Source of the DNA: Gigantopelta aegis
Taxonomy: Eukaryota; Mollusca; Gastropoda; Neomphalida; Peltospiridae
DNA length: 64,000 nucleotides
NCBI RefSeq assembly: GCF_016097555.1
Contig: NC_054702.1
Location: forward strand, 104,112,973 to 104,176,972
Reading direction: 5' to 3'
Shown here in pieces: positions 6,917 to 44,400 of the stretch. The notes under the pieces are model-generated. The model saw nothing but the letters and a program-made list of their open reading frames with translations, was not told the origin of the DNA and searched no databases. A program made the position numbers and the translations under genes. The number at the start of each line of letters is the position of its first letter. The stretch's first letter is position 1.

Positions 6917-7014
6917 GAAAGTATTTATTTATTCTTACTACTTTACAGATAAAGATTCAGTAGAGGTGAAGACTATTTACTGAAGGCTAGTTGAGGCAAC
7001 CAACTTCGACCAGT

Positions 7015-7684
7015 ATGGAAGAAAATTTGTCTAAAGACAGCACCACTGAACATACACATCTGACAAAAACACAAAGTGGTGATGTAGATAATTCGGAACA
7101 CTTTGAAGATGGTGTCACAGTATTTGTTGATCATTCTGAAGAAACCATTGATGATTCCAGCCCTGTAGTTATAGATCAGGTAGAAGAACACATTGGTGAT
7201 TTGAGCACTGCATCCGTGGAACAGATAGAATACACTGATGTTCATACAAGTAAGCAAATAGGTGCTGCAAGACATGTCGGCTTTGATCAACAATCTGAAG
7301 GTGGATCAGGTGACAGCAGCGAGTTTCATCGTTGTGATAATTTGTTAGGATTGACCAGGGAAGCAGTAGATGAACAACACAGTGAGTTAGATGGTGCTAA
7401 GGAAGTGATGATTGATGATGTAAACAGTAATGTAAATAATACCAAAGCAGTAATAGATAACACGCCACAAGCACTTGATGGTGCCAAAGAAATGACAGAT
7501 TATGTACAAAACAAAGGGGTGGATTATTCCAAGGAAGTAAAAGATGAACAAGATAAAGAACTACATATAGATGATGCTGGGATGGTTACCACTGATGTTG
7601 ACAGTTCTGATGCTGGAGAATCTATTTCTATGGAAGAAAATGTGAATGAGTTAGAAGAAAAACAGATCGATGAAGACCCTGTTG
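7015..7684 (+). CDS. CNST: Consortin-like first coding exon (acidic N-terminus)
   Basis: The 5' splice acceptor TTTACAG ends at 6948, leaving 66 nt of 5' UTR before the ATG at 7015. The open frame continues upstream through a TTG, but the first ATG is at 7015 (MEENLSK). The exon codes for 223 residues rich in D, E, S, T and V, with short degenerate repeats around VDEQ, VIDD and DGAKE, typical of a disordered segment. It ends at a donor G|GTATGA at 7685 with one base carried over. Confidence 0.7.
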
Positions 7685-10600
7685 GTATGAACATATATTG
7701 TATATGCATTAAGTGAAAACAAAGTTGAGTACGTAGCAGTGTTGTTATACATGTACCATAGCAATCATTTTATGTCTGTTTCTTGTGATGTGCTGATGTA
7801 ATTTACAGTGTATTAACGATTGTATTTACATTACAGGTGTTCCAAGGATCCTTTTTGCAAGTCTGTGTTATTATATAAACATCATAACTTTAAAGTTTAA
7901 TATACATGCATTCTGTCAAGACTATTTGTTAGATTCATTATTAATCAAGGACTGCAAACACAATATTATCTTGTCTTGATTAATTTGCACAGATATAATT
8001 GAATTAAATAATATTTTTCAGCAGATGATAGCAATATTTTTGAGTTTGAAGATGTGCTGCATGAGAATGACGAGTCTCGGATTCGGATGTTTAGCCAAGG
8101 CTTGGCTTTAGAAAGAGAAGGGAAGAGGAATGCTGCTCTCAAATGCTATCTTGGCTGTCTCTCCAATCTACAAATGGACTCCAATTTCGCACTTTTGCCA
8201 CACTGCTTGAGAAATGTGTGTTCTTGTAAAAAAAAAAAAAACTTTTTTTTTCTTTCTACTTCTCAGTTTTACCAATATCAGAATAGTTTCTGTCAGTTCT
8301 GAGATGTTTAAAATCCATTTCAGGTTATATTCATCATCATTATTTATGCCATCATGTACTCGTAAAGTTTTGTGGAAATGAAAGTATGGAAATATGACGT
8401 CATCACGATTTAACAAAGCTACACAATGACATCTCATACTTTAAAAAAGGTTTTCATTTACACATCTGTCTTTATTATTAAATTTGTAATAAAAAGTTAT
8501 TTTAATACAAGTCATTGCAGATATTTTGAATACAATAAATATAATTTTTAAATTATTTTTTCAATTATCTGTTATCGTGAATAAAATATAAAGTTATAGC
8601 AATACTCTAAATAGTATGTAAAGTTGTTGACATTTTTGCTATATACAAGTACATATATAGATATTAAAAAATGAAAACTCAACTCTGAAGTCATCAACAT
8701 TTAGTTACATTTATCATCTGCTATATAGCACTTTTGAAAGAAAGATTATGTACCCTACTGCGAATGTCCAAAATACTTTGAGAAAATATATATACTGTTC
8801 AGTTAAAAGGAGTATGGAAATACACTGGTTGAATACTGATGCTGTTGCTCCAAGAGTCCAATATGTTTTGTTTTTTGTACAGTGTCATATTCTGCTCCAT
8901 ATCTGTGCTAATAAAGTGCTTAATTAAAGAATATACACAACATGAAGTCCAAGGAATACTAGCTTTGTATAGTAATCATTTAATGCACCAAAGATACAAA
9001 AGGACATTAGCTTCTGACTCACGATCACTTTACCCTCGTTGGATAAACTTCCTGTACATAAAAAGGCTAAAAATAAATGCATCAATAACAAATTCAGACA
9101 ATCCAAGTCTGGAGTTTGGCAAAGTAATAAAGGAAGTAAACATTATTTATTTAAAAATCCTGTTGTACTAATTACAAAGGCATGTTCAACTTGTTTATGC
9201 TTACTGGACCCAGTATTTTGTACTTGCCAGTTGGCTACTACCTTTTAAGAAACAGTCACCTGTGAACAAAGGTTACTTGCAAATGCGAGTGGTTTACTCG
9301 CTGTGTAGTGCTCTGTATATTGTTATTTTGATATTTGGTTGAAAAGGAAAGAAGAAACCCTCCAGGGCCCTGTTCCACAAAAGAATTGGAGCTAAGGTTA
9401 ATTGTAGTGACTTACGTTGAATTTTACAACTGGCACCTGTTCCACAAAGCAACCTTACGGTAGTTGTAAGTGCCCCTTTAATGATTAAAATATTCTTTAC
9501 AAAGAAGTACGAATTAGTTATCTCCCGTATTTTCGTGTGAAAGTCGTATGGCCTAGAATGTTTTTTCATCGAATGGCGAGTTTTATAAAAGGTATTTGCT
9601 ATATATTAGATCCATTTTTATACAAAAGTTAGTATCCTTCTTAGAAAATGACCAAAATCATCATTTAACTGCCATTTGACAGCTACGTTAGTGGCTTACA
9701 ACTGCCTCGTACCTATTGTAAAATTTCACAGTAATTTACGACGATAGTAAGCTACACCACGTCATGGAATCAGATAAAAAATTAAGGTCATGATGGTAGG
9801 TATTTACGGCGATAGTAGTGCTAAGATCGCTTCAGGGCTTTAGATTTCACTAATTTGAGGTAAAATATTTTGATATCAGCTGGTTTGTAGTTAATTTGGG
9901 CATGATTAATGTTTATCGCCTTGACTTTGATGCAATCTAAAGCCCTGCCTTCTGCCATAATGTAGACTACTCTTATTATACCTATACAGCAAGGGATGTT
10001 TTAGATACACGTTTGATATATCATTCGTGAAACACTGGTTGGTATAGGATGACACATGCACACACCCCATGTCCATCAAAAGGAATGAATCCTTTGGCGA
10101 GCATTCTACCACCAAGATGAATCCCACCACAGTTTGGTCGAAAACAATGCCTGTGATCCTATCATATGTTAAAGCTGATAGTGTCGGAAGTGTGCCATTT
10201 TGACTTTTATGAATCAGTTGAGTTACAGCAAACATATATTAAATTTTTAATCATTGGCTTAATATATTTTGATAATTTTGTTTGTGTTTTGTTTGTGTTT
10301 TTTTTTTAATATTCAGTCTATAGTTTACTGTCAATTAAACTTTTGATTATTTATTTTACAGATAGCAGACATTTTCTTCCAGCATGGTGAATGTATCCTT
10401 TTGGACAATCTTTGTTTGCATTTGCATTGCATTGTGAACGACATCAGTGTTTGCTTTTGCTATTAGAATAGTATTCAGATTATTTGTAATGCTCACATAA
10501 ATTTAAGAAATATGCCATGTATTAAGGATTTTCATTATGGTTATTCATTATATACCATAATGGAAACATACCAAAAAATATATATATTACATAAGTCAAG

Positions 10601-13600
10601 GAAATACAGTTGGTATTTTGGATTTCTGTTGCCCCATTGGGCTATTTCTCGTTCAAACCAATACATCACGACTGGTATATCAAAGACCATAGTATGTGCC
10701 ATCCTGTCTGTGGGATGATGCATATAAAAGATCCCTTGCTACTAATGGAAAAATGTAGCGGATGATTAATAAATCAATATGCTGTAGTGATGTTGTTTTT
10801 AAAAAAAACTTTCTAGGTTATTGCATCTCGGTTTGACAGATTTAAATATCAATACTGACTACTGGACAAAAAAGAAATCCATTTACATTCTACAATTATT
10901 AGTTTGACATAATGACAGGTGTATGAGATATACCAAATATTCCTTAAATTCAGTATTATTTTAAGCATATATAAACAATTTGTAGATCCTTAACGTTAAT
11001 ATGCAGATGAAAAAGCCATTTGTTTCATCCAAGCTGAGAAGTTGTTTTATGAGAATGCATTGATTGACACAACACAAATTCAAAAGAAGTTGGGTAAGTT
11101 TGTGAAACTACGTTCTTACACAACTTTTATTTTAAAGGGACATTTCTGAGTTTGCTGCAATATTTAAGGTGTTATCGACTAACAGAGACTTTTTAACGAT
11201 TGTAATTACATATCAAATATATTTTCTATGCATAAAATATTAGTGGCTATATATTAAACATGTTTCTGGTCGTTCTAATATTTTAATAAGGTTAAATTTC
11301 ACTTTAGTTTCTAAAATATTTTTTTTCGTACGTACGGAATTATTTGAAGACAAAATCCAGTTTGGGCTTCTTACAAATATTAAAACGACCAAAAACACAT
11401 TGAATATATAGACACTGATATTCTAAACAAGAAAATATATTTAATATGTAAGTTTAATCGTAGAAATATTTTATTAGTCAGAAACATCTTACAATGCAGA
11501 AAACTTGGGAATGTCCCTTTAAACAAGATGGAAGACTCATATTTGACAATGCCTATAATCACACTGTTTTTCTATCTGTTGACACGATGTGCTATCATAC
11601 TGAATATATAACAGTGCTGTTTCATTATATCACTATTAAAACACTCATAGTTTGTAAGCATACGGTTTCTAAGATCAAGAGTGCTATTTCCTAGCTGCAA
11701 TTTAAAATATACTGAGGTGTCATTAAACACATTTTTTTCACCTATTTATTTTAGAGGAAATCCATACTGGTATGAGTGAATGTAAAGAAGGTGATGGCGA
11801 TTCAAAGATCTCTAAGGATGCTCTTCGTGCAGAAGAGTACGAACATCTGGCCAAACTGTGTATGGACAGGAAACAGTGAGTCCTTATCTACTGTAGCATA
11901 CTCTTTTTCTTTCCCGCCCCACAGAAGCAAACTACCATTTATACAAGTAATGTTATTTTGCAATGATTTATAATTATTACAAGTATATTTTGTGAAAACA
12001 TTTGATCAAACAATCTGTATGTGTTAATGATTAAATTTATCCATGTCTTTGAATTACTTCTTAAAGAACCCAAACAAACCTCAAAATAATGAAGACGTTC
12101 ATAGGTTGTTTCTCCTTCGGCTGTCTTCAGTTTTGGATGTCATGATATCCATGTTTAATATTAAATTGTTGTAAAACATGTATGATTGTCTTTTATGATT
12201 GGTTTTCATGGTTTGTATACATTATCTGTCTATTAAAAGTCAAATATTTCTATTAGATATACAGAGGATAATAAACGAGTTACCAGTTATCAAATTTATG
12301 TCCCTCATGAAATAATTTTCACTTGTCATGAGCTTTAGCAAGTGACAAGTGAAAATTATTTCATGAGGGACATAAATTTGATAATAACTGGTACCGAGTT
12401 TGTTATTCCATTACCCCAGCTATTATTACTTTTTTTAAAGCCTTTATTTTCGATATGGCCTACATCGGCTACACGTCCGTGTATATAGAAACAACGTAAA
12501 CTACTTTACTGTTCTGGGTATTGCTTTAACTTTGTATTTTATTCACGGTTCACAGATAATTTTGAAACCAGAAAATGCAAACACTTTAAACTATATGACG
12601 TCATTGTGTGTGCTTTCAAAATCGTGATGACATCATAATTAGTACAAGGTGATTGGTTTATTGGCGTCAAATCGTCCAATAGTAGTGTACGTTAAACCAG
12701 TGCATGATAATTTCTTAGTGAGAATTTTTTTTTTTTTTTTTCCCCGTTATGAGTGCCTGCTGGGGTAATAAATTTTAATAATTGATATTTTATTTAAGTT
12801 GTTACTGTTATTTGTTTTATTCTTCAGGCCTCAGCTTGCTCTGGAATATGCAGGCAAGGTAAGTAATATTCTACATTTGAGTTATACTGTTTTAAAAAAT
12901 GAAGGGAAATGGTTTTATCATAAATCTGGTTTGTTAATTTGTTGCATTATTGTTTCAGTTTTCAATCATATCAATTTAAAACAAACATGTATCAATTTAA
13001 AACAAACATGCATTTTGTTCCGTATAATTTATTGTTGATTTATAATAGTGTGTAACAATACCAGTGTGTATCGGTAACAATAATAAAACTTATTATAAAT
13101 TATCTGTCTTTATTTCAGGCAACAAAGATCAGGCAGCAGATTTATGGAGATGATCACCAAATCACCAAGGAAAGTTTGGACTACTTTGCCACTTTATATG
13201 CAGAGGTTGGGCGACATCAATACAATGGTAAATCTCTAGTCAGGGTTTATTTACTATCATTTGTTATGCCCAACTCTTTGACTTTCAGTAAGTGTGAGGT
13301 TCATTATACATACCCATAATTAAAAAAATATTCAGAGAATTTTTTTTAACACTTCAGTAAATTGTTTTCTTGGTCATATTGTAAATTTGCTTTCATAATG
13401 TAGCATGGGTGTGATCTTTAAGACTGATCCACAACTTTTTTTCATTTGTCATTAATACCAAATGTTGAACATATAACTCTGTGACCTGTAAAAGATACGT
13501 ATGATTTGCTGCGTTTCCTGTTTCAGAATTCCTCTCCCACCTGTCTCAAGATAAAGACTAATCCTGCTAATCAAGATGAGACTGCAGCAAACTTCCTGGT

Positions 13601-20672: not shown

Positions 20673-22871
20673 GTAGGGCAAGTCTTTTTTCTTTCTTTTT
20701 TAAGTTTTTAAAAATTTAACATGATTACCTTTTCAATTTCCTGCTCGTATTTTCATACTAGCTTCCATATTTATTCATTAAAATATTAAAAAATTGTCAG
20801 TAAAAAAATATTTTTCATGGGGAAAGTCGTGGAAAGTTTTTATGAGATGTGTGAAAACCCTGCAGATAATATGAATTAATATAAAATATGAAAATGCACT
20901 ATATAGTAACATCTGATTTGCCCCTAAAATATGTTTTAAGATTTTTAGTTTGGGCATTTTATTAATTCTGTAAATAAAATGTCTGTATGGGTTTTTCATA
21001 TTAATACAAAGATTTTAATGCTTTTTTTGCCTTTTTATATACAGACACATGCAGATCCATCCTGCAAATCCAAATGTTGTTGGTAAACATTTTTAATTTA
21101 ATTTTGGGGTTAGGAATTGGTTTTATATTTTACTTAGATTTAATGTTTTGGAAAGTTATTAGTAGATCTATTATGTTTCAAATTCATTTTCAGTCTGCTG
21201 CTATCCTTACTGGTTTGCTGTAGAAATAGGATAATTTTAAAATCAAATGTGAGCACCTTGACCTTTGTAGTTGTATAGAATTGACAAACATGTTCAGTGA
21301 CATTGAAATATGAAATATGTTTTTGTTATACACACATCTCTGACGGGTCGTATTATGGTATGGTGTTGTCTGTCCGTCCATCCGTTCATAAAATATTAGT
21401 TTCCGGGCCATATATTCCGTATTAATTCATATAGGATAATAAAAGCTTTCATGCAAGTACAACTTGGGATGGCAGTGTGTTGTGACCTACTTTTGTTTAC
21501 AATTGGTATATTATTTGCTTTGTCTCGAACGATTGTGAGTTTATTTTAGGAGATGAGAGAAATGTGTGTTTTTAAGTTACAAAAAGTCAAGAGTAAACAA
21601 TGGTATTTGCTGTTTAGTATGTTTTAAATGGGGTGTCGTATCTGCTGATGATGTTTTGATAAAGCGATCAGTGGAAATGGATATTGTATTCCATTACATT
21701 CTAAGTTAATGTAAAAAGCAATATGGCAGCTTGGTGTTCATTGGCAAGTAGAAAGAATGAAGAAAAAACCCCTTGTTCTAATATTGACAATAAAAGATAT
21801 GTTCATTCAACCGTGTACATGTATCTGTTGACATATCCAAGATAAGCCAATTCCATTTCTTGCAGTCATGTCAAATGAATGCAGGTTTAAGCTTCCAGCA
21901 TTTGTGCCAGCATCGTTTTGGTCAATTATGAAGTCAGCTGAACATGTACTAACATTAGCTTTAATTAGATTAGTGTCTATCTTTGAGTATTAATTAGAAT
22001 TTAACTTGGTGTTCGATTCATATTTTGTTTTTGTGGGGCTTTGCAATCAAAGGATAACATTAAGGTGTTTTTTTTTTAGCAAGATTGGACAATCAGAATA
22101 GAGTAAATTGTATTATTGTGGCAGGTTTGTAATTATATGCTTATGAAAGTATAGTAATCTTCACCCTGCAAAAGATTTCATGGATTCTTTTTATACCATT
22201 TCCCTGTAAAATACACATTGGATAATTTGCACATTATCGAGCTACCTATGGAAGGCCAATAGTAGGAATCATTGTGATTGATAAATTGCAGGTTTAATAG
22301 TGATACATGTACATTACGTTTAGTAATTTAAAATAATGAACATTTTTGATGAAGCTGGTCTTCCCATTATATATTGGAGTTGTTTTATTATGAGCTATTT
22401 AGTATTTAGTAAATAAAAAAATTCTAATACACATGTAGTTGGTGGTTTTTATTATTTATACCAGTGGCCAGTCAGGACCTATCAAGTGGGTACTGTTTAT
22501 CAAATCAATGGAGCCTATATCTGGTGCAATAGGCATCAGACATGCATTTTGATTCTTAATAATTTCCTATGTAGAAAGTATTAGTTCCTCGGTAAAATAA
22601 TTTTAATTTTCCCTGAGCTTGAGCAAGGGACTAATGAAATGTATTTCACAAATTTCATGACAGCTAGTACTAGCTTATTACCTCAACTGGTTTTTTTTAA
22701 CTTTTATGAACAGTATTCATATATATACATGTATATAAAATAACTTTACACACTATTATGAGTATTTCTATAATTTTGTTATATTATATTTTTTATAATT
22801 TACTTTTTACAGTAACGGTCTACTTATTCTATTGAGAAACAAAAGAAGTAATGAATGGTATTAAATAACAT

Positions 22872-23245: not shown

Positions 23246-26200
23246 CTAGTTGCCATAGGATTCTGATTCTAATGTTGGACATAGTTTGTATGCCTTTCTA
23301 TACAACTCCATTGCTTCTAAACATTCCCCGGCAGCCTGAAACGACACAAAGCAATACAGCACTTTGTAAACTTATTTGTCTTATGAAATTAGTATTAATG
23401 ACCCACTAATGTAATAAATATGTTCATATAAATACAGGGTTGTGAGAGGGGCTGGAACAAAAAAGCTTACTTTCTTCCCAAGTCAAACAAAGGCTTTCAA
23501 ATAACATATCCTGGATTGGACAAACCTGGTCAATCGCAGTGAAACTGACGAAATCCTGCCATGGGAATGTACTATGCGCGAATACCACTTGTGATCGCAC
23601 GATACTACTTTTGATCTAACTCTTGTGTGAGGTGTGGCATTCTCAGTCGGCCAAAAGGTGCATCGTTTTGGGGGTTGTTTTTATAGACGAAATGGAAAAG
23701 TGCATTTACATGTTTCCGCATAGTTCTCACATCCCTGTAAATAGAGCTTATGATTTAATGTATAAATATTATTGATAATTTTTAAAAAATAAGATACAAG
23801 GAACATTTTATTTTCAAAATCTTGATTAGCGATATTTCTAGTCAACTGAAAATTGTATAGCAACTACTGTTTAATGTTTTAAAATTGTGTAGTGATCTCT
23901 GAAATGAGCGACGCAATACTGAACAAAATGTTCCCTGGATATTGATTTTTAGAATGTATTAAGCTTCTCAAATCTCGTCTAATAAAAGGTCTTGTCTCAA
24001 AGTTGCATAATGGCCGCTTCCCAGTAATATTATTTAGTAACTTTTGCTTTGAAATGTAAACATACCTTCAACAATACGCTCATAAAAAAATAAATTACAA
24101 TTTTTAATTTAATGGTAAAAAAATATACTAATACATTGTATATATAGAGATTGGAGGATAACTGACAGAATTGAGGGTGTATCTGCAATGAACACGCCTC
24201 AACAGGAGGATGTTACTGACGAGTTTGCTGTCTTTGTGCAACTCATTAGTCTTTGATGGCGCTATCTAGCCACAGAGTGTCAACTTCACAAGTTATTTAT
24301 GTAAAGATTGTCTGCAGGATCAATTACTTACATGCATTTATAAAAATATTATTAAATATAAAAATAACAAAAATGGAACTTGTAACTATGCTATAGCACC
24401 TTTCATTTTTAATAAATCTATATACTATGTACTATAGTTATTGCACAACAGCAGTAATAATTTTTACTTTCAATGAGAAATGCAAGTAAAAATGGACTGA
24501 AATTCCAGAGGGCCCTCTCGATAAAAAATCCAAACTTCTTGTTCCAGAGTTTCCTAATTCTGCTTTTGTTTGTAAAAGTTACCTCTTTTCTTTCTGCTTC
24601 TTGTATCATCTGCAGCCCCTTTTCTTCATCCGGCGACAAGGATGGCTTACTGGTGTTTTTAAACATGATGTCTGTTCTCAGGATGTACTTTACGCCATCA
24701 CTATAAAAAGTAATAATTGTTCAGTTAAATACAATTTATTTACTTTACACTAATAAAACACAGAATTAAAAAAAATATGTAAATTAAATTTTTAAAATAT
24801 GAACTTTGTTAGCTGATCCAGTGTTCTAGTCAGGATCTTGACAGGGTAGAGCATTAATTTAATTGCTGGGCATTTTTAATGTGAATGTCATATTTTTAAA
24901 GGTTGTTCCCATCTATCTGTTGCTAGGTCTTTATTCATCAATACAATGCATAAGCAGATATAAATGAAGAGAATATTATTTACAGTATTATTCAAAGTGT
25001 CTACAAATATTTTACATGTCATACTGACACACACACATACATGTAGTTGTTAATATGAAAACGAACCCCATTCTAACCTTAATTTCTGTCCTTCATGGAG
25101 TCGTTGATGATTAAAGAGGATCCCCATTCCTGTTTCGGGTTGAATGCGATATAAAATATTTTTTTCTTCAGCACAGAACTTGCCATCAGCATCCTATATA
25201 TAGATAATATAGTTATTTTGAAATGCTTACGAAAATCAAATTAACAAAAATATATATACTGTACAGATGTGTTCTGTTATATCTACAGTGAGACCCTTCT
25301 AAAGGGGAACCCATGAGACCAAGTAAAAAGTCTGGTTTTAAGGGGTATTTGGCTTAGAGAGGTTCCATTCTGTACTGATATTTAAAACACTGTGAAAACA
25401 TCCGTTTATGAAAGTTTGTTTTGTTTAACGACACCACTAGAGCACATTGATTTATAAATAATTGGCTACTGGATGTCAAACATTTGGTAATTTTAACATA
25501 TATACATGTATATATATATAGTCTTAGAGATGAAACCTGCTTTTTCTATTAGCAGCATGGGATCTTTTATATGCACCATCCCACAGACAGGATAACACAT
25601 ACCACAGCCTTTGATATACCAGTCTTGGTGCACTGGCTGGAATGACAGGTAGCCCAATGGGCCCACCAATGGAGTTTGATCACAAACTGACCGCACATCA
25701 AGCGAGTGCTTTACCACTGAGCTATGTCCCGCCTCTTCTGATTATGAAGGGATTCTAGACCATAGACTCCAGTTTTGAGGGGTTTCACTGTATATACATA
25801 TATATATCGAAAACTAGAGATATACTAAAAGACACATAACAAATTATGAATCCACGGTATAAGAAGAAAACATTATTGAAACTGTAATCTTGTACTTTCA
25901 CTGTGTTCTGTTATACATAGTGAAACCCTTGTAATCCATGAAACCAAGTAAAAATTCTGATTTAGAGAGGTTCTTTTTGTACTCGTATTTAAAAACTGTC
26001 AGAAAAAACATATGATTTTTAAGGAATTCCAGATTACAATTTGATTGTTTTCACAGTATATACCTGTATATAAGATGAAAATTAATGATACTGACATACT
26101 AAAAGATGTATTACATTAATTAGGAATCCAAGGAGAGAAAAAAAAGATTATTGAAACTGTAATTTTGTACTATTGACTGCCCTAAACATTGTTTAAGTAC

Positions 26201-28249
26201 ATTCATTTTCCATCAAGGTACACATCAGACTAATACTGACATCGACAAAGTTAGTCCTGCCACCATTAAAATTACAGTTTTACCTTGTACAAAGTCTGCC
26301 TTTCATCAACAAAGTTAGTGCTGCCACCATTAAAATTAGTTTTACCTTGTACAAAGTCTGACTTTCATCAACAAAGTTAGTGCTGCCACCATTAAAATTA
26401 CAGTTTTACCGTGTACAAAGTCTGCCTTTCATCAACAAAGTTAGTGCTGCCACCATTAAAATTAGTTTTACCGTGTACAAACTCTGACTTTCACCAACAA
26501 AGTTAGTGCTGCCACCATTAAAATTACAGTTTTACCGTGTACAAAGTCTGCCTTTCATCAACAAAGTTAGTGCTGCCACCATTAAAATTAGTTTTACCTT
26601 GTACAAAGTCTGACTTTCATCAACAAAGTTAGTGCTGCCACCATTAAAATCTCCGTTGAGATATAACATCAGTGTCTTCATTGATCGCACTGTGGCACTT
26701 TCAACAAAATGACCATCGAAGTGTGGAGCAAAATGTCCACCAGGATAATATCGACATAATCTAAAGACCTGAAAAATATATATTAAAAAAATATTAATGT
26801 TTATGAACTATTTTTAAAGCTACTATAGTGCACAGAATAAGCATGCTCTTTTACATTTTGTAAAACTTGTGCTATATGCAAATACACAAAAATTGTACAT
26901 TAAAATATTAAAAAGTGGATACCCAGTACTTTGGACAAAATTATATTAGTCAAATACTAAATATTCTAGCCACTTTGTATTAAATATTAACAATAGGCTA
27001 CTTTGGCAATGGGCAGGCTGAGGCCTGTTCATGTCAACAAATCTCATTTTGTTTTTCAAATTGACAACTCTTAAAAAGTTGTATCTAAAAACTGTAAAAA
27101 TTTGTTTTAAAAAAAATGCAGTGGTAATATCTCATACCTTATTCAAACGATGTGGTTCCCATGTTCCCTGTACAAGACACTTGACACCATGAATGTGTTG
27201 TTTCGACGGATCTCCTTCAACTGTGATGTCTTTCAAGAAATCCTTAATTCTTTCCCATAACACAGATGCTAACCCAGAACTCTCAAATATTATTCTAAAA
27301 GACAAGAAAAAACCCCTACATGTATTAAATAAAATTGACTTTTGCATTAAATACTGGCTCGTACAGATTCCCCCATTAATTACATTTTCACCTATGTTTA
27401 TTGTCTGAACAGACTTCAAACTAACTAAAATAGAAACTTGACAAGATACATGATTAAGCAACCATTTTGATGACAATATAAAAATCAACACTAGATGATT
27501 TCTAAAATGCACATGTAATTACTTATGTGGAACAAGAGTGGATGGTTATGCCCCTCCCGTTTCCACCGTTATGCCTACCCTGTTCTTGGAGGAACACCCA
27601 CCCCTAACTCTTCCCCCTCCCAATAAGTTCTTGCCTTCAAATACATTAATTTTCACCATCAGACAATTGAATTGACAGTGCCACTCCCCCCACCCCCGTT
27701 ATCTTAGGACAGAATCAGCTCTGGGCTTATCACCTACAGCCATTAGTTCAAGATTAACTTCGAGTGCATTAGTTTATCAAGATAAACGTCTCCGGCACGA
27801 TATTTATTACTGTGTTTATTGCTGTGCCGTAACAATAAATGTTAAAAAACGAACCTTGGTGAATTACGATTGCATGTGCATGCACTCGAGGTTAATCTTG
27901 ATGAACTTACTGCAGCCATCACACATTTCAAGAGTTAAAAATCAAACTTTACTGTAAAACATTCTTATACTTACCTTTGACAGTCTCTGTAACTGCGTTG
28001 TGATGTTCGTAATTCACGAAATCCCGATATTTCGCCAGTTTCAATGTAGTGCTGACATTCTTTTGAACTCATCAGATTGTGCAACAGAAATCCTTGATCA
28101 CCAAAGTCACAAATGTCAGACTGTTTAACAAGTTTATCGTAACACGGATCTTCAAAACTATCAATATGCTGCAAAGTGTCAGCATCGTAAAGTATTTCTC
28201 CGTTTTCATTTGAACCATCCTCAACGCCGGGGACAAATACAGAAGTCAT
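23246..28249 (-). CDS. 2-oxoglutarate/Fe(II) oxygenase, prolyl 4-hydroxylase type, 6 exons
   Basis: Exons in gene order: 28249-27975, 27294-27138, 26768-26598, 25193-25078, 24700-24583, 23335-23246, giving 927 nt or 308 aa with consistent phases. The catalytic double-stranded beta-helix shows the iron ligands H160 and D162 (FAPHFDGHF) and H234 (NHQRLHEG). K244 (GVKYILRTD) sits exactly ten residues after the last histidine, as the 2-oxoglutarate-binding lysine does in prolyl 4-hydroxylases. No signal peptide or membrane helix is visible, so a cytosolic or nuclear enzyme is likelier than an ER collagen hydroxylase. After the domain come SLSPDEEKGLQMIQEAERKE and a TPR-like helix pair (AAGECLEAMELYRKAYKLCP) before TAG at 23248-23246. 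The substrate is unknown. Convergent with consortin and downstream of claspin on the same strand. Confidence 0.85.
25412..25734 (-). mobile_element. SINE family A, type-I tail, near full length
   Basis: On the minus strand it runs from a tRNA-like head (GGCGGGACATAGCTCAGTGG, A box) through GGGATCTTTTATATGCACC (as seen on the plus strand) to the tail ending CACTAGAGCACATTGATTTA (plus-strand view). It lies in intron 4 of the oxygenase gene. Confidence 0.85.
26240..26650 (-). repeat. Exon-tail minisatellite carrying copies of a splice donor
   Basis: There are about six copies of a 62-64 bp unit. The right-most copy is the 3' end of the oxygenase exon plus the first bases of its intron. GTTTTACC (the donor seen from the plus strand) recurs at 26277, 26339, 26403, 26465, 26529 and 26591. 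Unit spacings alternate 62, 64, 62, 64, 62, matching alternation of ATTAG with ATTACAG and of TCTGAC with TCTGCC. The array is therefore a 126-bp dimer repeat. The copies differ at only a few bases, so expansion was recent. Confidence 0.93.
26598..26768 (-). CDS. Oxygenase catalytic exon (H-x-D iron motif)
   Basis: This exon codes for 57 in-phase residues, starting VFRLCRYYPGGHF, with the HFD iron-binding pair (H160, D162), and ending DESQTLYK at a donor AAG|GTAAAAC. Its last roughly 53 nt, together with the donor, are the founding unit of the adjoining tandem array at 26240-26650. Confidence 0.88.
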
Positions 28250-30442: not shown

Positions 30443-30717
30443 GGGTGGGACGCAGCCCGGTGGTAAAGCGCCCGCTTGATGCACGGTCAGTTTGGGATTA
30501 ATCCCTGTCAGTGCCATTTCTCATCCCAGCCAGTGCACCACGACTGCTATATCAAAGATCGTGGTATGTGCTATTCTGTCTGTGGGATGGTGTATATAAA
30601 AGATCCCTTGCTACAAATGGAAAAATGTAGTGGATTTCGTAAGACTGCATGTCAAAATAACAAAATGTCTGACATCAAATAGCTGATGATTAATAAATCA
30701 CTGTACTCTAGTGGCAG
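30443..30717 (+). mobile_element. SINE family A, type-I tail, full length
   Basis: GGGTGGGACGCAGCCCGGTG head, B-box-like GGGATTAATCCC, core ATATAAAAGATCCCTTGCTA, tail GATGATTAATAAATCAC then CTCTAGTGG. Intergenic, between claspin and the oxygenase gene. Confidence 0.85.
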
Positions 30718-32423: not shown

Positions 32424-35400
32424 CTGTAAAAAAAATGCAAATACCGGGAACATGAATGTTTTTTTTAAATTATTATTTTTTTAAATTTTATTTAACGATG
32501 CACTCAACACATTTTATTTACGACTATGTTGCGTCAGACATATGGTTCAGGACCACACAGATATGAAACACGCTGTCAGCACTTCATGGGCTACTCTTTT
32601 CGATTAGCAGCAAGGGATCTTTTATATGCACCATCCCACAGGCAGGATGACACATACCACAGGCTTTGATATACCAGTCATGGTGCACTGGCTGGAACGA
32701 GATATAGCCCAATGGGCCCACCAACAAGGATCGATCCTAGACTGACCACGCATCAAGCGATTCATGAATGTAATGCAATAATAATTTATTTAATTAAAGT
32801 AAACTATAACAAACATAAACTATATTTAAATATGCAAAGTAAATAGGGGAGAAAAAGTGACCCACACTTAACATAAATGATATACTTAGAATCTGAATAA
32901 TTAAATTCTTCACAGAAGGCCTTGATTAACTGGTATTTGTTTGGTGAGACAGTAATTATATATGGAAATGCAAATTGACAACAGGAACTCATTAGTACCC
33001 TTAGCTTTGGAAAAAGGGGAAAGAAAAAATATGTTTTAAATAAACAGGCTGAGTAAAACTTTGAGTCTTGTTCATGAATAGTTAATCTAAAATCTTACTT
33101 TATTGCAAACCCCCACCCTACTGAAGGACTGGCCTGAACATTCCTACTGCTGATGAAATGGCAAGAATCTTACAATGTGTTAGATGGTATATGCAAGTTC
33201 ATGTAAATAATTACTTCAGATTTATCTTGAACCTTGTCTGGTGACACAACTTGAAAGATGAAGTTCTTAGAATTGGTCGGTCCTGTTGGATTCACCGTGA
33301 CCTTGGAACGAGCAGAAATCTGAGCCAGTGCAGCTTTACTGCGGGTCAAGAAAGAGCCTTTTCTAGCAATCTGAAAATTAATAAACATATACATCAAATA
33401 TATTCCAAAGTATGATTTTAAAAGAGATTACAGATTATGAAACAATCCTAACAATATTAAATACAATTTCAGCTGTATGTTTGCTTCTTTTTTTTAAAGG
33501 GATTTAAAAATGATAACTTAAAATGAATCTGAAATTAAGATAGACTTGATTGTTTGCCGTTCTCATACTATGTAACCGGACTTACCACCTATATATTCAT
33601 TTACTATACTTTTTTACTGTCAAAATTACCTGTTTAGTAAACACATCTTTCTCCTTGACATTTTAAGGTACAAACACAATTTATTGTAGTCCCATTTTTA
33701 TCTCAACCATCATTCTCCTAGATTCTGGTTTAGTGACTTTATTATTTATTATTTCTGTTCATTCATTTTGACTGGCTGTTTGGATGTTTGGGGGTGGGGT
33801 GGGAATTGAAATGAAGGGATATGCACTTGGGAGAGATGTTAGGTTAATGGATGAAACGGAAACTCTCTGTCCCACTTGATTCAGATGACTGATCAGGATG
33901 TGATTAATATTTAACTATAAAAGAATTGAAGAAACTTGATTGTTTTCTCTTGTCACAAATTCTTAAACATATCTCAAACTAATGGCTTAGATTTTAAGAT
34001 GGCAAAAGCAAAGTCATCCGTAGTGTAAGAGCGAAGGAGAAAAAAGAAGACAACTTCAATCACGTGCCATGAACAGGAAGCAGAGAATTCATTGAACAAT
34101 TTTTAGCCATCCAATTGGCTGTTGGAACAGCGGAAAATGCCATTAGTCAGGTTAAGTTGACAAGAAAATATTTGCTTCTACACTACAATGGGATGTGCAC
34201 ACTATAGAATCTTGTTGGGTCGAACTCGGAAGGATCAAATACACTGCAACGCTCAAACCAAAAACAAAGTCCTGAGTTACACTTACACAATGTTAACTGA
34301 ATGGTTAGGTCAAACTATCTGATGGGTCGAACACTTTCTCCAGCACTGACGGGGTTCGAGCCAACAGGATTCAACTGTACTTATAAAATATTCCAAAACA
34401 CTTACACTTGGTTTAAACACCTTGACTGGACTTTTATTTGGCTGCAGGGGCTTCTTAAATTCTGTTTCTTTTTTCTCAGTTGAAACTGTAAGAATATAAT
34501 TTTTAAAACATTAACACTAATAATTAAATTGTGGAAGAAAGGTTTATAAACATATGTGACCATGTCTGCAAAATATGTTTTTGGTATTTTTTTTTTATAG
34601 CTAATGGTCATACAAGTATCGTAAGGAGACCTATATTTATAAACGACCGTTGCTATCCAAATAACTACCCTTTTATTTGTATTTCAATGCTTCAAAAGAG
34701 CATTAAACTGGCTGCTATGTAACAAAGTTTCCTGCACGTGCATAAAAAACTGAAGTATGTATCAGTTGTAAATATTGTTAACTACATTACTTGTATCAAT
34801 GAGTAAAACCTTTAGTGATATATCTTACAGCCAGAATGAAACTTTTCAGTGTTTTATCAAAAAACATGTATATTGTCCAACAAAACATGTACTTATATAA
34901 TCAAAACTGAAACATTTCCAATATTTTAAGGTTACCGAACTTTTATCAACATGACTGCTAATTATCTTTATTTATTTCCTTACTTGCTAAAAAAACATAT
35001 TTTCAAGTGAAGAAACCCATGCAAGAACAAACATGTTTTTTGTTGTTTAATAGTTAAATTACCTTGTCGTAATAAAAACATTTTCCCCAGCTTTAAAAGT
35101 TGACTACCATCTTCATTTTCCTGTTCTTTTTCCTAAAATAAATAAAACATAATTAAAATTAAATGATATAATACATGAGTTGCTTTGTCTTAAGTTGGGA
35201 AGACAAACCAGTGAAATAAGCAGTATGTAAAACATATCTGTTAAACAGTTACAATTTTTAAAAACCGGCCTCAGTGGCTTATCAGTTAAGCCATCAGACA
35301 TAAGACTGATAGATACTGGGTTCGAACCCTGGTACCAGCTCACACGCAGAGCGAGTTTAATGACTCAATGGGTAGGTGTAAGGCATCTCTCTCACAAACC

Positions 35401-38400
35401 GTGTCCTGGACAGACAGCCTAGATAGCTTAAGTGTGTGCCCAGGACAGAGTGACTGAACCTTAATTGGATTAGTGGAAGGGAACAAAAGAGGGTATGAAT
35501 AAAACTTCAGCCATATCAGAAAACATACTCTCTGTTCTTCCAAGAACTTTTCTCTTTCAAATCTTTCCATTCTCCATTTTAATTCATCTGCGTTTTCTTC
35601 CTCAGGTCCTTCATCATCCGACCCATTTCCAAACATGTCTTCTTGGGACTCTTCATCTGAAAAATTCCTCACAAACTTTTATTCCAAATTTAAAAAGTTA
35701 AAGTTTATTTTGCTTAATAACACCACTAGAGCACATTGATTTATTAATCATCGGTAATTCTGACATGTTTTCCCAGACAGTACACACATATCACGGCTGG
35801 AATCAGAGAAATAGCCCAATGAGCTGATGGGAATCAATCCCAGAATGCTTAATTTTAATATTACTCTGTTGGTATTCTATAAAGCAATAACTCATTTGTC
35901 TTTATTTAAGTTTTTCTATGTTGATTTTGACAGAGAATGTTTTTAAAAATATAATCATTTTTTAATAAATAAACACGAAACAAAATGAAGACACCCAATA
36001 TCCCTGGTTTTATGAAATCTAAGGACAAGTAGTCAGATGAACCAATTTAAGAAAGGAATGGACAAAAATATTATTTCACAGAGATTCTTATTTTCAGAAG
36101 ACCTCTACAATTTGAGTAATTTATCATTATTTATTCTTCAATGGGTAATACCTGTTATTAATCCGAATAGCTGAACTAAAACTACTAGCTGTTACAAGTA
36201 TCTGGAATTCTCAAATTACCCTGATTACTCCACTTGAATCTCCTTGTTCGACCTTTTCCATCAGAATACAGATCACCATCTGGCAGGTACATTTCCTGGA
36301 GTCGCATTATGTCACGTTTGTCTTCATCTATTGTTCTTTTCCTGAAAACATACAGTATTTTATACACATTATATACGCCATAGATATACATAAGCCCGGC
36401 TGGGTTGAATGTAACAGATGAATGCAATACAGACTTTCATAAGATTGGGAATTTTAAACCAATACCTTGAAACCTTTTGTTTAAATTAGTCTATTTCTGA
36501 CTTGCTATTAAATGTATTGACCCTGGTTATTAGGCAGTGTACAATATTCCATTCCTGGCCTGGTGCTTATAAAACTTTTCAAGTCTACACTCGAGACTCT
36601 AATAGAGTCCAAGACACTAATGCCATACAAATTGTATTCGTGTGACGTCATTAGAGATTGAGTCTGGACTCTAAAACTTTTATAAGCACGGGCCCTGGTT
36701 AGAGATTTTCAAAGCTGTTTTAGTGCTATGAAATCATGAAACCGCCGTAAGCTATGACGTCACTATAACACAGGCCATAGTTATATTTTAGCCAAAGATT
36801 GTTTTACGATATCATAGTGCTAAGATAGCTTTGGAAATCTGGGCTCTGGCTATTACTGTTTTAATTAATTAGATGTGAACCAGAAAAAATAAATTATAAA
36901 TTTAACCTACAAGTGAACTCTTCCAACTTGGTCGCGGAGCTCCTCCTCGGAGATTGAGTTGTCCAGATCGCCTTCTTCCATCTCCATAATATCATCCTCT
37001 TCTGGGATGTCTAGATTTTCATCGCTGTCATACTCGCTTCCTATTTAACAGAAACATGGCAAATCATCAATATTCCCATTAAAGTGAACACTGCTAGGCT
37101 AGTTTAATACTTACAAACAATTTAACCAAAGTAATCAAGCTGGATTCAAAATTGTCCACAAAAAACAAATGCAGCCAACTTATACCTGTTCAAACAGTAT
37201 CTCTATTAAGACTTTTAATATATAGTAGGTTGCATTCAACAGTACAGTTATAGTACAACTTACCCTGTCTTAAGCACCAATCTGTCTTATGAATGACAAA
37301 CTTCACAGTAGCCAATTATATTTCAAAACTGACGTAAAACAAAAAACAATACCTGACAATTCTGCTTCTTCTTCCACAAAAGCTTGTCTGATTTTTCTAC
37401 AAAGAAACACATAATTATATTAATTTAACAAAGCACAAAAAAAAGAAAAGAAACAAAAGACAAAGAGAATCTTATTTTATTTGCAGACATGTTTATACTA
37501 TTGCAATATAAATCCTCTCCATCCTATCCCACCCAGCGGTAAAGTGCTCACTGGATGCACGCAAGGTTTGGGATCGATCCGCGTTGGTGGGCCCATTGGG
37601 CTATTTCTCGTTCCGGCCAGTACATCACGACTGGTATATCAAAGTCCTTGGTATATGCTATCCTGTCTATGGGATGGTGCATATAAAAGATCCCTTGCTA
37701 CTAATGGAAAAATGTGGTTTTCCTCTCTGAGATTATATATCTAAATTACCAAATGTTTGACTCCAATAGCCGATGATTAATAGGTAGAATAGATGTTTAA
37801 AGACACCCCAGCATGAACTGATTATTCATAAATCAATGTTCTCTAGTGGTGTCTTTAAAAAAAAAAAAATTTAACCACCCCATCCCATGAGTTTATCTCA
37901 GTACTTCTTCTGGGGAGGTGAGTGTAATATTTTCTAAGGTATCTAAAAAACAAGATGCTTTATTTATACTGAAGAACATTTCTGTGGCTTCCTCAATAAT
38001 ATTATTTTTAAATTGCCCTATTTCACAAAATGTAGAATTCTAGTAATAATTTAATTTCTGAAAAAAATAGAACACTTCCCTCCCTCATTCCTAAATTATA
38101 CTTCAATTTTCATAATTATATTTGTATCAAATTACTAGTTAATCAAATGCAGTACTTGCAGTTTGACGATTTCCATGTGAGTGAAAAACTGCTCGCCTCA
38201 TCACAAGAAGATATTGCTAATTTATTTTGCTCTAAATAACTGTGAATTTTATGCCGAGACAATTACTCTCCTACATAATTTCAGGAGAGCTCACCATCAA
38301 GCCATAAACACTGCAAATGTTAATGCTGATTTGTATAACTCACTTCGTTTTACTTGCAACAAATCCTTTAAAATGTTTCTTCTTAGATCTGACTTGAACG

Positions 38401-41400
38401 TCTGGGAGTTCTTCCGTGTCATCAGAATTATCGTCTGTCCGTTGATCATCATCATCAGACAACTCCTGTTAGACAACAATGAGAACATATTTTAATGAAA
38501 ATCTATTGTTTATCCATTAGTTGAAGCAAGTTGTTGGACAATTAACTAACGTATGACCTAAAAATATTACTCAAGAATGTTTCTCACCAAACATGCATGG
38601 TGTTCCCATAAATTGATTTCACTAGGTAATTTCAAAAAATAAAAGCATGATAATGCATATAATATAAGTTAAAAGTATGCTTAAGTTGTGGAAAGAAAAA
38701 TGTAATTTGTATACAATAATCCATCCCTATCAGGGATTTATCCAGGCATTCTCTGGAACATAGGCCACATCCCAAAAGAAAGTGGCTCTGAAAATTCCCA
38801 ATTTCTGTACTACAAATTCCTAATATATTTAATTATGTCTTCTGTAATAAATTAATTTAACAGTGGTATACTGCATCATGTATAATTTACTCGCACTAAT
38901 TTTCCCCAATTCCATCAAACATAGGACTCTTTTGAAAAATTCCTATGTGGTACATTAAAAAAAAAAAAAAAAATCCAGAAAGAGCTTGTCTAATGTCAAT
39001 GTGTTTGTTGATAGAGACAGATATGCTGTAAGTGTATTACCTTTTCACTATCCAGGTTATCTTCTCCATCTGACAGGAGATTGAACGATGTATTACTTTG
39101 TTCTTCATCGGTGGCTTTTCTTTTTGCATTCCCTGATGCCCCGTCTTTGTTACCATCTGGACAGCTGAATATAGAGTTAATAAGAAAAAAGAATCAGTTA
39201 TATTTAACATTATCATTATACATCTTTCAAATTATATAATTATAAAACACAGGCCCATCCCCAAAATGTTCTTTTTAGTTTAGAAGTGCTACTATTTATG
39301 GGAAAAGGTATAAACCGCCATCCACTAACAACACTGCTGTTTGTCTCAACTGAGCACATTCAATTCCATTGGTCATTCCCAAAAGATTCACAGATAAAAA
39401 AATTAAAAAAATTCTACTAGTAAATTAACTAAAAACATTTAATGGGCAAACAGGTCAGGGTATAATTGTACATTTCAAGCAAAAGTTAATAATTAATTAT
39501 GACAGGAAGCCACCATTATGCAATGTTGAAGCAGCACCTTTAAACAATACAGGGCTTGAACTTAATTACAGCACTTGTCATCGTTGAAATATGAATTGCC
39601 ATAGGTCGGAAGGAAGGAAATGGTTTATTTAACGAAGCACTCAACACATTTTAATTACGGTTATATGGCGTCAGACATATGGTTAAGGACCACACAGATA
39701 CTGAGGGAGGAAACCTGCTGTCGTCACTTTATGGGCTACTCTTGTTGATTAGCAGCAAGGGATCTTTTATATGCACTATCCCATAGACAGGACAGCACAT
39801 ACCACAGCCTTTGATGTACCAGTTGTAATACACTGGCTGGACCGTAGGTCGGAAGCATCAACGATGGCAAAATGTATACACCTGGAGAACATTATCTGCC
39901 AGTATATAAAATTTGTACACTTGAAATGTCTACATACAGCAAATAACAAACATGGGATATAACTTCTTACGTTAGAGCCCTGCAGAATACTATTAACACC
40001 TGGTAGTTAATGTTTAATGGTTATGGTTATCTGTACCTTGCAGGAAAGAAACCAGAACAAAGGCCAAGAAGCTCGTCCATGTCTCCTGTTGTGGATTTAG
40101 TACTGCCTCCAAACAGATTTTTACAAGATACTTTCTTGCCTTCCTCTTGGGTTTCTGGAATAATATTCAAGTCAGTTTTAATAATACATTACTTATATTG
40201 TGGTGAACACAAGAACATTTTAGAATCACTACAACATATTAATTATAGTGATTGTCTACTGCTTTTAATATACTATATTTTGTTGACTATTCAACGCACC
40301 TTATATAAACTGCCCCTTCTGATTTGGGGAAAATTTTTATATACAGCAATATACGGTAATGTTATCATTTTAAAGGATAGATTATTCCACTTTCTGCATA
40401 CATGTACCATACAGGTTTTTGTATTTTTAATTGGTCCATTAAACTTCCCCAATATGCAGATTATAAACCTCTAAAATATGAAAAGTATAACATATAATAA
40501 TAAAACACATAATAACTACATACCAACAAACTTTCCCGAACACAAGCCTAGTAGTTCATCCATGTTGTTCTGTGTACTAGACACATGAGACGTCTCGTCA
40601 ATGAAACTCAGGGACTCTTTAGACGGCTTTCTCAGGGATGTATTAACCTTCAGGAATCTAAAATATCATTAAAAAGATAATACTAATATATTAATAATAA
40701 AATAAATAAAAACTAAATTTACTTCAACACCATTTCATGGAATCTTTGTTATAATTAGTTTACTTTCTTCTTTGTTAAAGTATTTAAGTATTATTATTTT
40801 TTTTTTTAGCAGATTGTTCAATAAAAAGAACCAAAAATTTCAATCCAACTAGTTAATAAATATTGACCCGAAGATTATCATTTGTAACCTGGAACAATAA
40901 ATATTAAAAAAAAAAAAACCCCACAAAATCATCAGCCTTACCCATCTGCATCTAGCATCTGCGACTGCGAGTCGTCTAAGAGGAAGTTGAGACTGTCATT
41001 GGACATGGAAGCCTTGCTGGGAAGTCCTGCCATGCTGAGCGACTCAGTCTGTGTATCATCATACAGGTCTTGAGAATCTTCAATAGGTAGCGTCAGACTT
41101 GATCGCTTTCTTGGTTTCTGCAACAAAAATTAAACTTTGTTTTGTTTAACGACACCACTAGAGCACATTGATTTATTAATTTAGATTTCAAACATTTGGT
41201 AATTTTGACTCATAATCATAATCTTTAGAGAAAATCTGCTACATTTTTTGCATCATCGGCAGGGAATCTTTTTATATTCACTTTCTCACAGATAGGACAG
41301 CACATACCAAGGCCAATTAAAATATTTCAACAATTAATGACATCACAAGAATCTTTCATTGTAAGGGATGCCAAGTTCTGACCACAGGGCTAGCTGTGCC

Positions 41401-44400
41401 ATTCACCAAATTTGCCAACTGAGAATTTTAAACTCAACTGACAAATTTTATTTTAATTTGGCGAAATAATTTCATGTAATGACTAGTATTGGGGGAAAAT
41501 AAGGTGGGTCTTTCACTTCTTTCTGTTTTGCTCTTGTCATCCAGAGTCCCTGGACGATAAGACTATTTTAAATGGTCAGGATATTTTAAAATTTATTTAT
41601 CAGATTGTAGTGCTTTCTTTCTAATTCGGGGTGGGATGTAGCTCAGTGGTATAGCGTTCGCTGATGCGTGATCGATCTAGGATCGATTCCCGTCGGTGGG
41701 CCCATTGGGCTATTTCTAGTTCCAGCCAGTGCTCCACAACTGGTGTAACAAAGGCTGTGGTATGTACTATCCTGTCTGTGGGATGGTGCATATAAAATAT
41801 CCCTTGCTGCTAATCAAAAAGAGTAGCCCATGAAGTGGCGACAGCGGGTTTCCTCTCTCAATATCTGTGTGGTACATAAGCATATGTCCGACACTATCTA
41901 ACCGTAAATAAAATGTGTTGAGTGCGCTGTTAAATAAAACATTTCCTTCCTTCTTTCTAATTCCTAATAAACATGACTCACCTGTGTTTGTGTTGCAGAC
42001 AGATGCTTTGATAAGGGAGATAAACCATCTAAAGTATCATCATTATGATCTTTACTCGTCACTGGAAAACAAAAAGTACATTAAGACACATACCGGGTAC
42101 ATACAATTTTACACACCAATTTTTCCTTTAAATAATGTTTCCCCTACATTTTCTTAAAAATTGATGGTGAACTCAAATCTTTTTTATTTTTTAGTTGTTC
42201 ATAGTTTTGTGCCAAATAAATCAATTTGCACTCACACACTTAAAGTCAAATCAAATGAGGCACTTGTGAAAAAAAAAACCAAAATGATTTCGATTTACTA
42301 TAGGAATCAACAAAAATTGTGATTTCCGAATCTTTTAGTGAGTTCAGGATTTTAAGCTTTTAAAAAAATTTGTTTATCAAAATAACAAATTTGATTCTTA
42401 GCAATCCCCCTAAAATGTCCAAGCAGCACTATTGTTTTGCCAGCAGGTGTAAATTAATAAACAAAAACCCCACACACCACTAGAAAATGGTCTGGCATCA
42501 TCTGCAGTACTTTCAGTCTTTTTTGCTTCTTTTTCACCTGGTGCTGACTGCTGACTCTCTTCATCATCACTAATTGCAAGTTTTCGCAGTTTCTTTTTCT
42601 TTACTGCATTCTCTAAATAATAAATACAACAGCATTGTGTAAAACATGTTAATAATTTTGGTCTATTTAAAAAACAAATACCAATATGAACGAATCAGAT
42701 TTCAAATGCTAAGAGTCATTCAACATTAGTTATCTGTGCATCTTGAGGGCCACATCCTAATATTAATATACTTTGGTGAAAAACACAACAAACCTGTGAA
42801 AAAAACCCAGTAGTTATGTTGGTCATGTGGCCTCAATAACTGAGTAAATGTCTTATCTTGTCTTGTATAATACGGATTAAGATGACATTGGTAAAAAAAA
42901 TCAAAACAATGCAGGCTCTTGAAAAGTAGTTATTGTGAACTTTTCACGAAACATCAAGGATGGAACAGTTTTCAGGAGACACTGAAATTCGGAATTCTGG
43001 AAAATCTTAACATTTTTTTTACCTCTAAAAATAGTTAACATGTTATTTTGCAGGGGAAATTTCAATACATTCAGACTGAAAAAAAACTTTAACCAACTAC
43101 TAACATCATGGGAAAAGTTTCCATTTGAAAACTGATACATTACCAAATTTTTAAGCAAAAAACATTCTAAAAGTACTGCTAAAGCAATACAAGCCCCCTA
43201 CAGAGCACAACAAATTTTCTTAACTTCTAAATTCAAGGGCCATAACTCAATCAAAACTGGGTGAATCACCATGAAAGTTAAACTTCATCTGTAATAGTAC
43301 ATGATAAAGCTATATCCAAAATTACTGCTCAATATCTTGAAGCATTGAAAAACAAAAGTCTGGAAGACAAATGTCTGTATCATCCTAAAGTCAAGAGACA
43401 TAATTGTCACAAATTGGTAAATCGTCATTAAAGTCAAACTTGACGAACATAAAGACAGAGATGGATCAGTAGGGGACTAATAATGTTCAGCATTTCACTC
43501 ATACTATTTGGTATTAATAATATTCAGCATTTCACTCATACTATTTGGTATTAATAATATTCAGCATTTCACTCATACTATCTGGTATTAATAATATTCA
43601 GCATTTCACTCATACTATCTGGTATTAATAATATTCAGCATTTCACTAATACTATTTGGTATTAATAATATTCAGCATTTCACTAATACTATTTGGTATT
43701 AATAATATTCAGCATTTCACTCATACTATTTGGTATTAATACCGTGTGAATGTTCTTCATCGTCTGAAGAGTCCAGACGAAGTTTCATGGTGTCCGGTAA
43801 GTCTGTGTTTTCATCTGAGTCATCATCTGTAGAGTCTTCCCCATCATCATTATTATCATCGTCCTCTGCTTCCTCATCAGCAAAAGGATTTTCCTAAATA
43901 ATAACAAACTATAACTAGTTTGTTTTAAATCACTCAAAATACCATAGCATGTAATTTAAGGTTTGGCACACAAAAACACTTAAGCTGTAATATCACAATG
44001 GTGTGTGCTGTGGTGAAGTCACAGTCTACGATGATTTTACAATTTTGTAATGCTAAGAGAGCTTTGAAAATATAGGCTCTGGCTACTTACACAGGTTACG
44101 ACACACTTATCAAGTACATAATTCCCATTGTTTTAGTATAATAATGAACATTAATCGTATAAAAAAAATAATCGCCAAAGTTAGGAACATATTACCATGA
44201 CTGTACAAAAACATGTAGCAGGTTTCCTCTCTAAGACTAAATGACAAAATTACTAAATGTTTGACATCCAATAGCTGATGATTAATAAATCAATGTGCTC
44301 TAGTGGTGTCTTTAAACAAAATAAATTTTTGTACAGAAACAAAACAAGTAATTTATTAACAAAGTACTGGATTATTACTGACAAGTGCAGACCTCCTGCC

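Follow-up and report, generated by a model that had tools for sequence, protein, structure and literature searches.

Minisatellite-like tandem duplications of exon-intron boundaries have been reported in the globin genes of amphioxus, following earlier cases in the amphioxus Adh3 gene for which the name "mirages" was used (PMC3087553). As reported there, many of the amphioxus repeats, but not all of them, contain AG/GT signals, and the Adh3 data together with globin RT-PCR suggest that regular splicing is undisturbed; for BflGb6, two haplotypes with 6 and 3 units are described (PMC3087553). TnC, along with similar repeats in PGBD5, has been added to the amphioxus cases (PMC3902484). An earlier note on the DNA analysed here, which held that few cases of a repeat array seeded by a coding splice junction are known, understated this literature, in which the amphioxus mirages (Adh3, BflGb6, BflGb9 and TnC) are reported as arrays of this kind.

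The present analysis concerns such an array in Gigantopelta aegis, a deep-sea vent snail, within a window of 64,000 nucleotides of genomic DNA. The host is a 2OG-Fe(II) oxygenase-like gene, LOC121372442, whose six minus-strand exons were joined by hand; in a protein search the spliced product matched P0001, "uncharacterized protein LOC121372442 [Gigantopelta aegis]", with 100% identity over 308 aa. The parts of the gene that matter here are as follows.

23246..28249, minus strand: whole coding span with 6 coding exons; the 927-nt CDS has a translation identical to P0001
28249-27975, 27294-27138, 26768-26598, 25193-25078, 24700-24583 and 23335-23246, minus strand: the coding exons that make up the 927-nt CDS
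26598..26768, minus strand: exon 3, 171 nt, with the HxD motif (H160-x-D162); translation identical to P0001; Pfam PF13640
25194..26597, minus strand: intron 3, 1404 nt, with GT...AG boundaries; contains the array
25078..25193, minus strand: exon 4, 116 nt, with the RLHEG histidine; site of the stop in the product of decoy 1

The family assignment comes from a Pfam match to PF13640 (2OG-FeII_Oxy_3) at aa 148-247, with an E-value of 3.6e-08, strong enough to pass the family's own cut-off; a MIT match at the C-terminus is too weak to pass its own. A comparison with solved structures returned none at E below 0.05, the top one being a prolyl 4-hydroxylase at E 0.069. The protein search with the same product yielded 59 proteins at E up to 0.001, many of them with molluscan names, and 20 of the 59, P0001 counted among them, were aligned.

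The array occupies positions 26240-26650, where Tandem Repeats Finder reports a repeat with a period of 126 (3.3 copies, 96% match, score 780), and the same interval at a period of 62 (6.5 copies) scores lower, 704. In minus-strand orientation the units begin at 26650, 26588, 26524, 26462, 26398, 26336 and 26272, giving six full units (62, 64, 62, 64, 62 and 64 nt) and a partial seventh of 33 nt. Unit 1 comprises the final 53 nt of exon 3 and 9 nt of the intron (GTAAAACTA). The motif GTAAAAC is found in all six full units, the authentic donor included, and is missing from the partial seventh. The gene's own donor is at 26597, ACACG|GT decoys are at 26535, 26471 and 26409, and ACAAG|GT decoys are at 26345 and 26283.

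26589..26650, minus strand: unit 1, A type, 62 nt, with the authentic donor (first intron base 26597)
26525..26588, minus strand: unit 2 (64 nt, B type), containing decoy 1 (26535, ACACG|GTAAAAC)
26463..26524, minus strand: unit 3 (62 nt, A type), with two substitutions found in no other unit and containing decoy 2 (26471, ACACG)
26399..26462, minus strand: unit 4 (B type), the same sequence as unit 2, containing decoy 3 (26409, ACACG)
26337..26398, minus strand: unit 5 (A type), the same sequence as unit 1, containing decoy 4 (26345, ACAAG, score equal to the authentic donor)
26273..26336, minus strand: unit 6 (B type), containing decoy 5 (26283, ACAAG, score equal to the authentic donor)
26240..26272, minus strand: partial unit 7, the opening 33 nt of a unit, 93.9% identical, without a donor

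Units 1 and 5 are identical at 62/62 positions and units 2 and 4 at 64/64; any other two full units are separated by 1-4 substitutions and a gap of 0 or 2 nt. Between 62- and 64-nt units the difference amounts to 1-2 substitutions and the 2-nt gap, or 3-4 substitutions and the gap when unit 3 is in the pair, and because of these pairwise differences the reading as a 126-nt dimer holds. The earlier note had located the array at these coordinates, with five decoys split between ACAAG and ACACG, all of which is correct by sequence, and its view that the alternation of 62 and 64 makes a 126-bp dimer the true repeat is confirmed by the Tandem Repeats Finder scores and the comparison of units. A full seventh unit was considered and rejected, as the sequence past the 33 nt aligns no better than shuffles do (a fraction of 0.352 of 500 shuffles reach its score). 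At the two ends of the array, the distal partial unit is 93.9% identical over its 33 nt, and the unit on the exon side matches unit 5 at every position. Immediately before the last G of the exon, at 26599-26606, lies an 8-bp palindrome, TTGTACAA. The ACAAG copies have it as well; in the three ACACG decoys it is disrupted by an A to C change.

The direction of copying can be read from the protein. Five residues encoded in the repeated stretch (F185, G188, T190, F192 and Q197) are identical in 20/20 aligned proteins, the snail's own included, and G187, N191 and L199 are the same in 19/20; among the more variable positions are S196 (8/20) and N186 (2/20). Since the repeated codons encode conserved residues, the exon represents long-standing coding sequence from which the intronic units were copied, and the proposal that the array was seeded by the tail of the exon with its donor therefore stands. 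The opposite possibility, with the intron as the source, was rejected for the same reason, the residues in question being conserved across molluscs, Lingula, nemerteans and Balamuthia. A dispersed repeat was likewise rejected as the source: blastn at E up to 1e-3 found no copy of the array or of 26651-26800 elsewhere in the window. Compared with unit 1, full units 2-6 carry 4 substitutions, all of them amino-acid-changing (S196R, D194G, T198S and K201T), and one 2-nt difference; partial unit 7 contributes two more, S189R and a synonymous one at V193, so that 5 of 6 substitutions change an amino acid in the frame of the exon. The copies thus give no indication of coding constraint, though little can be proved from six events; for a judgement on selection at the decoys, 4 variable columns out of about 62 do not suffice. 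The identity of units 1 and 5 and of units 2 and 4 points to recent turnover.

Other repeats are present in the same intron and in the wider window. The rest of intron 3 (25268-26179) contains an older tandem duplication of about 75% identity, in which 25268-25346 pairs with 25902-25971 and 25774-25903 with 26040-26179, and which is apparently interrupted by a dispersed repeat at 25408-25737. The latter is SINE-like by its spread, with relatives on both strands, for example at 62290-62487, 32597-32760, 37534-37782, 30444-30714, 41630-41820 and 10633-10753. Further tandem arrays are found at 48907-49350 (109 bp, 4.1 copies, 100% identity, hence either very young or an assembly fault), at 43478-43741 (37 bp, 7.1 copies, 97% match), at 51879-52285 (about 142 bp, 2.8 copies, with dispersed relatives of the unit at 21402-21484 and 45980-46053) and at 46868-46929, the last within the open frame 46502-47662 and short of its ends. 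The minus strand of 33173-51555 holds a series of acidic, exon-like open frames, which by eye we take to resemble claspin; Pfam gave no match for the four of them that were searched (35343, 36188, 44455 and 46502). A minus-strand frame at 54462-54848 encodes a Myb/SANT-like DNA-binding domain (PF13873, E 1.6e-10, Pfam), and a plus-strand frame at 13056-13316 has a weak TPR match (E 0.0023, under the Pfam cut-off) and possibly belongs to the same gene as the frames 6991-7713 and 8012-8299.

Use of decoys 1-5 would extend exon 3 by 62, 126, 188, 252 and 314 nt, to 233, 297, 359, 423 and 485 nt, and reading on from the authentic donor meets TAA after 21 codons, at 26534-26532; the earlier note had given the same extensions and the same stop, and both are confirmed from the sequence. 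Its further statement that every decoy truncates the protein is right for all five, but decoy 1 does so by a different route. The TAA is formed by the GTAA of decoy 1 itself, so that use of this decoy splices the stop away, and the frameshifted product ends inside exon 4 after 259 aa; the products of decoys 2-5 do stop at 26534-26532, after 222 aa. In all five products the RLHEG histidine of exon 4 is lost or out of frame, and each stop precedes the last exon junction by between 122 and 485 nt. With a stop that far upstream, nonsense-mediated decay would be expected by the established rule.

Donor strength separates some of the decoys from the authentic site. A human donor table, applied here to a snail gene, gives 7.04 for the authentic donor as well as for decoys 4 and 5, 4.83 for decoys 1-3, and 6.81-12.46 for the other four donors of the gene; the corresponding U1 duplex energies are -6.8 kcal/mol for the three sites at 7.04 versus -5.5 kcal/mol for decoys 1-3. 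The authentic donor is moderate, with 6 contiguous U1 pairs and an A at +5, and decoys 1-3 fall below it by about 2.2 bits and one U1 pair. They are not exceptional as donors: scoring covered 117 GT sites across exon 3 and intron 3, and four that lie outside the array beat them (25602, 26063, 25691 and 25666, with scores of 6.61 to 5.04). Decoys 4 and 5 have scores equal to that of the authentic site, and strength alone cannot tell these three apart. An RNA structure that might hide the decoys was considered and rejected, as the 481 nt around the array do not fold better than shuffles (z -0.82; 18/100 shuffles at least as good), and a scan for bacterial promoters and terminators found nothing, its bacterial models being uninformative for a snail.

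Position may decide the choice instead. In human genes, the upstream of two near-equal donors is reported to be favoured when both flanking introns are above 250 nt, and in human minigenes (n=5) with two identical strong donors the upstream one was used exclusively (PMC9225289). According to the same source, weakening the donors left the upstream preference intact for smaller exons and led mostly to skipping of larger ones. When the strength filter is dropped, about 60% of human events favour the downstream donor, and a classical finding from in vitro work, that the intron-proximal site is preferred, is also cited (PMC9225289). The introns on either side of exon 3 measure 369 and 1404 nt, both >250 nt, and under this rule the upstream authentic donor would be favoured; this rule derives from human genes and from tests with two donors, and its application to a snail gene with six donors is our extension of it.

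On this basis, we consider it quite probable that the array is a recent, mostly neutral mirage that is spliced out with intron 3 after choice of the first donor. A tandem duplication would have taken its unit from inside coding exon 3 across the 5' splice site, and unequal exchange or slippage would then have expanded it as a 126-bp dimer, each new copy falling downstream of the authentic donor. Because both flanking introns exceed 250 nt, exon 3 is probably exon-defined, and because it is exon-defined the first donor, which gives the shortest exon (171 nt), should win over identical copies downstream; the array would be removed with intron 3 during splicing, and use of the first donor in the animal would be nearly exclusive. 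Several observations run counter to this account. Two of the decoys, 4 and 5, equal the authentic donor in score and lie within the same 53-nt exonic context; the authentic donor is of moderate strength, and unfiltered human events mostly favour the downstream site. Judging by the assembled sequence, the exon-side unit is also undiverged from the interior, unlike the boundary units of amphioxus BflGb6.

The earlier note suggested that tandem identical donors could compete for U1 and make expression depend on repeat number. If the decoys took a share of splicing and their products were decayed, repeat number would set the fraction of transcript lost and the array would tune expression. Five intact GT donors, two of them equal in score to the authentic one, and stops 122-485 nt upstream of the last junction in every decoy product are what such a tuner would need, and the human ABCA7 and TERT genes are reported to have intron VNTRs linked to splicing. 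An abalone gene has a 27-bp intronic minisatellite reported to vary in copy number among individuals, so that repeat-number variation does occur in gastropods (PMC6905558). Against this, the exon-definition rule favours the upstream donor (PMC9225289), the nearest decoys (1-3) are the weaker ones and are outscored by four GT sites outside the array, and amphioxus mirages are reported to be silent, which together make tuning unlikely. It is equally doubtful that the serial donors, as a natural competition array, cause a measurable, repeat-number-dependent loss of transcript while exchange moves S196R, D194G, T198S and K201T into the exon. The public model of LOC121372442 equals the product of the donor at 26597, a protein model being unable to reveal products removed by decay.

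That the PacBio assembly inflated or invented the copy number is somewhat less likely still. The published host genome, from which we infer that the window comes, was built from PacBio reads corrected with Canu and assembled with wtdbg2, then polished with Racon and, using Illumina reads, with Pilon (PMC7895826), and an amphioxus precedent exists in BflGb6, whose mirage seemed aberrantly assembled in a draft (PMC3087553). The Illumina polishing speaks against such an error, as does the length of the array, 411 bp, far shorter than the 8-50 kb fragments reported to have been selected for sequencing (PMC7895826). Moreover, substitutions and a 2-nt indel distinguish the units in an orderly way, which argues against a pure artefact, although the exact copy number may differ; a second, independent short-read assembly of G. 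aegis is reported (PMC7736800). Least probable of all, in our view, is that the units are on their way to becoming new exons or intron borders, as proposed for the amphioxus globins. A model of this kind has been published for mirages (PMC3087553), novel introns in human duplicates are reported to be linked to variable repeats at exon-intron boundaries (PMC2812944), and the 126-nt dimer is in frame. However, units 2, 4 and 6 end in TAA in the frame of the exon, inspection of the units by eye revealed no strong acceptor, and the public protein LOC121372442 lacks such an exon. The array is thus best regarded as real and as a mollusc member of the mirages, most likely splicing-silent.

Boundary-spanning minisatellites, best described in amphioxus, thereby gain a mollusc example, and the array offers a natural test of how the spliceosome chooses among several near-identical donors. 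Exon definition, if it explains the silence, predicts a genome-wide enrichment of such arrays at exons with long flanking introns, and, more speculatively, it could filter where boundary arrays survive. Donor copies fall downstream of the authentic site, acceptor copies upstream of it; both would therefore lose in exon-defined genes and be harmful in genes with short introns. Among the literature matches listed, none describes a boundary-spanning array in a mollusc, which is weak evidence of absence since most subscription journals were outside the search; the available text of the papers on the abalone TSSK1-like gene and on cone-snail toxin genes describes no array of this type.

Among known systems, the human ABCA7 and TERT VNTRs share with the snail array a tandem repeat within the intron of a coding gene; the snail units carry the donor of the host exon. 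In human segmental duplications a minisatellite over an exon-intron boundary and a potential change in splicing are reported, but those cases concern recent paralogues, and most of the intron modifications are reported with repeat-retaining transcripts (PMC2812944); the protein search with the LOC121372442 product had one G. aegis protein among its named matches. The amphioxus mirages are, as reported, boundary-spanning, minisatellite-like duplications in which many units bear splice signals. The snail unit likewise crosses an authentic exon-intron boundary (53 nt of exon and 9 nt of intron), and its copies carry the splice signal of that boundary, GTAAAAC, in 6/6 full units. In amphioxus, both 5' and 3' boundaries are reported to be affected, with units of 10-72 bp in Adh3 and about 150-160 bp in the globins, and for BflGb6 concerted evolution of the interior units and diverged boundary units are described. 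RNA splicing, length polymorphism and somatic instability have been reported for some amphioxus mirages, and the snail array is known from one sequence. It differs from them in its mollusc host, in the gene concerned, in its alternating 62/64-nt dimer and in its five intact decoy donors.
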